A program made the position numbers and the translations under genes. 64,000 nt of DNA from Sedimentibacter sp. MB31-C6 (GTDB lineage Bacteria; Bacillota; Clostridia; Tissierellales; Sedimentibacteraceae), in contig NZ_CP142396.1 in NCBI RefSeq assembly GCF_035934735.1, positions 2,232,001-2,296,000 on the forward strand. The letters are read 5' to 3'. This document shows positions 59,233 to 60,006 of this stretch, piece by piece; positions within the stretch are counted from its first letter, which is position 1; the number at the start of each line of letters is the position of its first letter. The notes under the pieces are model-generated. The model saw only the letters and a list, made by a program, of their open reading frames with translations, had not been told where the DNA came from and did not search any database.

Positions 59233-60006
59233 ATGTTATCAAAACAAATTAAAGATAGAATAGGAAATATACAAGGTAATATCGGTATATATTATAAAGA
59301 CCTTAAAAGCGGTAGAACTTGTATCGAAGGAAATAGTGAGAAATTTATTTCTGCCGGATTAGCCAAAGTTCATGTTTTGCTAGAAGTTTTTAATCAACTT
59401 GAACAAGGAAAATTTAAGAAAGATGATATTTATATTTTAAAAAATACTGATAAAATGCCATCTATTGGGGCAGTTATGCATATGCATGAAGGAACTGAAT
59501 TAACAATTGAAGATTTATACAAATTAATGATTTCGATTGGTGACAATTCAGCATTTAACATTTTAGTTAATTTATTAGGTATTGATTCTATAAATATGAC
59601 TTTAGATGAATTAGGATTTGTTATATCACGTGTTAATAGATTGCTTTATTCTTATGATGCTATGTCTAAAGGGGTTGAAAATTACACTTCAATACATGAG
59701 ATTGGAGATATTTTCGATAGGCTATATAACCAGCAAATAATCAGCCGAAAAGCTAGTAATGAAATTATTGAGGTTCTCAAATTGCAACAACGAAACTTTA
59801 TAATTCCTTACTATTTTGGTCTTAATACTATTATTGCACATCAAGTAGGTGAAGATGATGAGTGTATTCACGATGCGGGTATTGTATATTCTATGAACCC
59901 TTTTATTCTGTGTATGAGTGCAGATAATGTTGATGTTAAAAAAGCTGAAAGTGCAATGAGAGATATTGCATTGATGAGTTTTAAACATTCAAATAGACTT
60001 AATTAA
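59233..60006 (+). CDS. Catalytically inactive beta-lactamase-like paralogue
   Basis: A 257-residue paralogue of the hydrolase at 56683. The N-termini match closely (IGIYYKDLKSG against IGFYYKNLITG), as do DKMPSIGA and the EDDECIHDAGIVYS segment. Every catalytic motif is changed: SVIK becomes G42-L-A-K45, SDN becomes G103-D-N105, KTG becomes Q204-V-G206. The frame is intact with no stop or frameshift, so it has been kept as a protein. It lies nine bases after the activator gene, with GGAGGAAATT upstream. A ligand-binding or regulatory partner of the activator is the likely role (inference). The cytoplasmic location is shared. Confidence 0.85.
   Translation: MLSKQIKDRIGNIQGNIGIYYKDLKSGRTCIEGNSEKFISAGLAKVHVLLEVFNQLEQGKFKKDDIYILKNTDKMPSIGAVMHMHEGTELTIEDLYKLMISIGDNSAFNILVNLLGIDSINMTLDELGFVISRVNRLLYSYDAMSKGVENYTSIHEIGDIFDRLYNQQIISRKASNEIIEVLKLQQRNFIIPYYFGLNTIIAHQVGEDDECIHDAGIVYSMNPFILCMSADNVDVKKAESAMRDIALMSFKHSNRLN

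Follow-up and report, generated by a model that had tools for sequence, protein, structure and literature searches.

In BlaR1 and MecR1, the penicillin-recognising fold serves as a receptor in gene control. Their sensor domains are class D-like and extracellular, they need an active serine for acylation, and the signal passes through a protease to a repressor. A precedent on the side of the activator is DhaR, a sigma-54-type activator of E. coli governed by the dihydroxyacetone kinase subunits DhaK and DhaL, in which a protein resembling a catabolic enzyme co-regulates via the N-terminal part of the activator. Regulatory pseudoenzymes and sensors with a penicillin-binding fold are each known, but separately. 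Nearer in structure to the protein described here is PBP-A of Thermosynechococcus, a DD-carboxy- and endopeptidase acting on amidated muropeptides; what chiefly sets it apart from class A beta-lactamases is the missing omega-loop glutamate, and its catalytic mutant is S61A (PMC11189452). Class A beta-lactamases have also been deprived of their nucleophile in the laboratory and crystallised with ligand, as for TLA-1 S70G with clavulanic acid (PDB 6pq8). Sigma-54-dependent activators (EBPs) such as PrdR have been studied in Clostridiales, where enhancers (UAS) of the TGT-N10-12-ACA type are reported for 15 groups (PMC6615313).

How does the locus of Sedimentibacter sp. MB31-C6 compare? The window, by which we mean the whole stretch of 64,000 nucleotides that was analysed, holds a gene at 59233..60006 (+ strand) for a pseudoenzyme of the class A beta-lactamase/PBP-A fold, directly behind the gene of an EBP of the same activator type as PrdR and the other Clostridiales EBPs. 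The proposal made below shares with BlaR1/MecR1 the use of a penicillin-recognising fold as a gene-control receptor, whereas the 59233 product appears cytosolic, lacks the serine and is tied to a sigma-54 activator. It differs from DhaK and DhaL in its fold, and those two proteins are catalytically competent. What is new is the combination: a cytosolic, serine-less penicillin-binding fold tied to an AAA+ activator. No description of a beta-lactamase-fold pseudoenzyme joined with a sigma-54 activator was found in the open-licence papers searched, and the main text of the Clostridiales sigma-54 regulon study mentions neither lactamase, dipeptidase nor aminoacylase (PMC6615313).

A class A fold without its nucleophile

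The gene encodes 257 aa with no internal stop. BLASTP aligns its product with that of the intact paralogue at 56683..57444 (+ strand), in which Pfam, BLASTP and alignment identify S-V-I-K, SDN and KTG; 83/250 residues are identical (33%) with 0 gaps (E=6e-53), bearing out the sequence-only reading that the two proteins align along their length and that the frame is kept. In this ungapped alignment G42 (codon 59356-59358) lies opposite the nucleophile serine of S-x-x-K, G103 (59539-59541) opposite the serine of SDN and Q204 (59842-59844) opposite the lysine of KTG, with V205 in place of the threonine, which are the substitutions and positions first reported. The accompanying claim that all three motifs are lost needs tempering: the key residue of each is gone, but K45 (the lysine of S-x-x-K), D104, N105 and G206 remain.

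Is this protein still a beta-lactamase? Its fold is of that kind. Pfam Beta-lactamase2 matches it over its full length (144 bits against a cut-off of 22), and with an AlphaFold2 model (six sequences, pLDDT 90.4) the closest solved folds are LRA-5, 4ewf, 4hes and PBP-A, tied at Z 32-33 and rmsd 2.0-2.3 with 251-256 residues aligned; the criterion for a class A beta-lactamase/PBP-A fold is met by the 144 bits together with Z 30-33 over ~250 residues. PBP-A itself (PDB 2j7v; Z 32.0, rmsd 2.1, 251 residues) differs in being an active DD-peptidase: it has a nucleophile serine where the window protein has glycine. As an enzyme of class A the protein fails at Ser70 (G42) and at Lys234 of K-T/S-G (Q204), and it scores 58.5 bits with the curated NCBIfam class A model NF033103, below the cut-off of 200. 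That it is non-catalytic is inferred from these missing residues, without an activity assay. A hydrophobic N-terminus suggesting export or a signal peptide is absent from both the 59233 and the 56683 product, and on this basis the pseudoenzyme appears cytosolic. The substitution and its position are identical to those of S70G in TLA-1; that one is a laboratory mutation, whereas the glycine described here has been fixed in evolution and comes with a regulatory link.

The change is shared by a whole lineage. Among 84 distinct homologues, gathered at the five ranks from genus up to phylum of the window genome and in one further order and family, 22 proteins of 21 genomes have glycine at the nucleophile and the remaining 62 are Ser-type. 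The Gly-type proteins form a single clade (bootstrap 100/SH-aLRT 94 with the motif columns masked; 96 in a quick tree), and the tree requires one nucleophile change only. Orthologues with the S-x-x-K serine would have refuted the sequence-only reading; it is absent from all 21 other members of the clade, and glycine is invariant (22/22). The further idea of a fixed G/GDN/QVG signature survives for the glycine alone, as GDN occurs in 2/22 (the window protein and L039, the S103 position being serine in 20/22) and QVG only in the window protein. Elsewhere in the pocket, the S-x-x-K lysine is kept in 14/22 and is methionine in 8, the KTG lysine is replaced by Q, I or L and kept once (L041, 1/22), and the T/S of KTG is kept in 18/22; D104, N105 and H203 are found in 22/22 and G206 in 21/22. 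Since L041 has the glycine and still has SDN and KTG, the comparison suggests that the nucleophile serine went before the other motif residues. Columns conserved only in the pseudoenzymes include D8, R9, G33, N34, E51, F53, S153, Q168, R243, D244 and I245, and part of the set D8, R9, E51, F53, Q168, R243, D244 and I245 falls within the first and last helices. Outside the clade, a long-branch Ser-type homologue (L053, G036:C122:9226-9933) has KVG instead of KTG and sits at the end of a target operon (M19, AGCS), followed by an aminotransferase and then an alanine racemase gene; perhaps it is another branch drifting away from catalysis.

The window protein falls together with L039 and L040, which come from another family of the order (63-64% identity), while three other Sedimentibacter species fall in a different sub-branch near a Peptostreptococcaceae metagenome assembly (51% identity to the window protein). 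Because of this placement outside its genus, the EBP-pseudoenzyme unit has probably moved horizontally, and the relatives at 51% need not be strict orthologues of the window protein. The 59233 and 56683 products occupy separate, well supported parts of the tree; the pair, judged by these positions, is therefore an old paralogy and not a recent tandem duplication.

Is the gene under selection? Values of dN/dS (Nei-Gojobori, among close relatives) are 0.048, 0.062 and 0.080 in the Sedimentibacter trio, 0.074 for the genome pair G1051/G1074 and 0.056 for G1341/G1363. The pseudoenzyme is no looser than its comparators, which give 0.106 for the active paralogue of G1051/G1074 and 0.10-0.13 for the EBP. 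Synonymous sites of the window gene are saturated against every relative compared, so that the low dN/dS is seen in the relatives and not in the window gene itself. The frame is free of stops in 21/22 clade genes; the exception (G1345) lies among other broken frames, which makes a sequencing error likely. With catalytic residues missing and purifying selection measured in close relatives, the protein satisfies the definition of a pseudoenzyme, and the selection that the sequence-only reading had supposed is found there (dN/dS 0.05-0.08), a neutral rate not being observed.

Linkage to a sigma-54 activator, its putative promoter and targets

The EBP gene (57466..59223, + strand) ends 9 bp before the pseudoenzyme gene. 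By Pfam its product has an AAA+ Sigma54_activat domain (280-447) with GAFTGA and a Fis-type HTH; with rpoN present in the genome and a -24/-12 promoter nearby, what is expected of a sigma-54 activator is in place. The protein is PrdR-like over 177-582, and PrdR is the closest NCBIfam model, but at 365 bits against a cut-off of 795 it does not qualify as an equivalog. The N-terminal ~270 aa (57466-58290) match no Pfam family; in contrast to the remainder of the protein they evolve fast, their identity to relatives being 17-21%. An AlphaFold model of this part (five sequences) is poor (pLDDT 61), and Foldseek returned no match at E 0.001 with it, only some weak PAS-domain rows that are not usable.

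An EBP gene lies immediately upstream in 22/22 Gly-type loci (L121 counted via the overlapping locus L062) and in 1/62 Ser-type loci; in that single case, L046, the EBP belongs to a separate branch. As the Gly clade is one lineage, the linkage amounts to one conserved association and the 22 cases are not independent. The distances of the EBP (AAA+ to C-terminus) and of the pseudoenzyme are correlated (Mantel r 0.80, p 0.0001), and the linkage is thus exclusive, conserved and accompanied by joint divergence. One genome (G1205) has two EBP-pseudoenzyme pairs, each by a different target operon: one beside a YfcC-type transporter and a VanX-type dipeptidase, the other beside a permease, a D-aminoacylase and an active paralogue. 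In a separate observation, an EBP of a different branch is followed directly by an intact Ser-type homologue at locus L058 of genome G121 (genes 5183-7822), possibly an independent, enzyme-competent version of the pairing.

What would this activator control? A strict -24/-12 (sigma-54) promoter, TTGGCATAAAAATTGCTT, lies at 60106..60123 (+ strand), 54 bp before the start codon of a peptidase M19 gene of the membrane dipeptidase family (60178..61137, +; Pfam 288 bits), the first gene behind it. An AGCS amino-acid:Na+ symporter gene (61270..62781, +; Pfam 336 bits, TIGR00835 above its cut-off) is probably in the same operon. Across 377 kb of loci the strict pattern is met 35 times, and in 19/22 pseudoenzyme loci a site stands immediately ahead of the target operon, either downstream of the EBP-pseudoenzyme pair or divergent from it. 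Upstream of these 19 promoters a palindrome recurs, GTYCGG-N4-CCGRAC (GTTCGG-N4-CCGAAC in the window), with 28 sites at ≤2 mismatches against 2.2 expected from dinucleotide shuffling; the pattern was defined on the counted sequences, so the excess is somewhat inflated. In the window this putative enhancer is ATTCGGAAATCCGAAC at 60030..60045, and a degenerate first copy, GTTCGAAAAAATGACG, is visible by eye at 60010..60025. At ≤1 mismatch the site at 60030-60045 is the sole occurrence of the core palindrome in the 3.02-Mb genome. It differs from the TGT-N10-12-ACA enhancers of other Clostridiales EBPs (PMC6615313), which are not consistently present at these loci. Two more strict -24/-12 matches lie in the window at 8588 and 15631 (+), before open reading frames starting at 8615 and 15787.

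Target genes at other loci encode a VanX/M15 D-Ala-D-Ala dipeptidase, an M20 peptidase, a D-aminoacylase homologue (matching PDB 1m7j and 3gip, E about 1e-40), alanine racemase, a diaminopimelate decarboxylase-type enzyme, amino-acid permeases and often the active paralogue. Their common theme is the breakdown of D-amino-acid peptides, as released from cell walls, and the LD-carboxypeptidase-like and DapF-like genes seen by eye beside Ser-type relatives fit it.

A probable regulatory partner, with or without a ligand

Taken together, we think it probable that the 59233 product works in the cytosol as a PBP-A-like pseudoenzyme and is a regulatory partner of the EBP encoded upstream, whether or not it also receives a ligand. 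The gene-control role rests on the linkage, the joint divergence, the promoter and the palindrome. A D-peptide is put forward as the signal because of the target genes and the ancestry of the pocket. In the fuller form of the proposal, the pocket, which could not be acylated once serine had become glycine, would bind a D-amino-acid or murein-type peptide non-covalently, for example a dipeptide ending in D-Ala. The ligand-dependent state would pass by direct contact to the N-terminal domain of the EBP, and the EBP, sitting on the 60030-60045 palindrome, would drive transcription from the promoter at 60106. The M19 dipeptidase and the AGCS symporter would then be made, and the ligand taken up and broken down. 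We advance this version, a cytosolic receptor of the S70G type gating an AAA+ sigma-54 activator, tentatively and with somewhat less than even confidence. Binding of the EBP at the palindrome, ligand binding and the identity of the ligand, contact with the EBP and the sign of the effect (activating or inhibiting) are all inferred. The ligand is guessed from the neighbouring genes, the contact has no structural support given the poor N-terminal model and the empty fold search, and the EBP might need no partner to sense the ligand. Ligand sensing, which the sequence-only reading offered as an example of a non-catalytic function, is plausible and unproven; the evidence speaks more strongly for regulation together with the adjacent EBP, which that reading leaves unmentioned.

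If true, the fold of both penicillin targets and resistance enzymes now serves gene control in anaerobic Clostridia, its catalysis disabled by the Ser-to-Gly change that crystallographers also use. D-peptide or cell-wall-fragment nutrients would gain a named receptor and that receptor a regulon, and it would become clear why databases list such proteins as beta-lactamases, though resistance is unlikely. Should the receptor step hold, this would be a cell-wall-fragment sensor of a kind not described before.

Does the pseudoenzyme need a ligand at all? It might be an anti-activator or co-activator through protein contact alone, with the signal entering via the N-terminal domain of the EBP. This is the regulatory partnership without its receptor step, so the weight given to it overlaps with that of the partnership as a whole; we regard it as unlikely but still credible. 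Clade-specific conserved residues lie as much in the terminal helices as around the pocket, and pocket residues besides the glycine vary, as this explanation would have it. Yet the constancy of D104, N105 and H203 (22/22), G206 (21/22) and the S103 serine (20/22) suggests that something is still bound.

Another or unusual activity, or the binding and carrying of D-peptides in the cytosol without touching the EBP, would reduce the gene order to shared expression. The conserved fold and pocket region, K45 kept in 14/22 and the T/S of KTG in 18/22 leave room for it, and migrated catalytic residues have been found in some proteins originally termed pseudoenzymes (PMC10211241). We judge this distinctly unlikely: nucleophile serine and S-x-x-K lysine are both lost in 8 members, so that the family's serine-hydrolase mechanism can be excluded, and it would go unexplained why the exclusive link is with a regulator gene and not with the target operon's enzymes.

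Could the partner be the active paralogue instead of the EBP? An allosteric or stabilising subunit of a heteromer would suit the presence of both genes in one operon in the window and of an active paralogue within the target operon of many loci. However, the near-complete genomes G001, G003 and G009 have the EBP and the pseudoenzyme and no other Beta-lactamase2 homologue above 50 bits. A role as a subunit of the active enzyme is disfavoured by these three genomes, which keep the pair without a close Ser-type paralogue, and the EBP is never absent (22/22); the heteromer is a weakened and improbable explanation. That 59233 is a recently inactivated, decaying duplicate, as its altered motifs might suggest, is ruled out by a glycine common to 22 proteins in at least two orders, the low dN/dS and the intact frames.

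The active paralogue and its surroundings

The pseudoenzyme has an intact relative next door. In the 56683 product, a leucine takes the place of beta-lactamase Glu166 and aligns with Leu158 of PBP-A. For this reason we infer from the alignment that the active paralogues are more likely peptidases than resistance enzymes; to annotate the 56683 product as a beta-lactamase would probably be a mistake. It is a cytosolic-looking serine hydrolase, of a family whose genes recur beside those for D-aminoacylase, permease and dipeptidase. Between an AP_endonuc_2-family gene and 56683, the region 56253-56626 contains two interleaved repeat elements with internal palindromes, one of 76 nt at 56386 and 56551 (99% identical) and one of 78 nt at 56253 and 56487 (86% identical).
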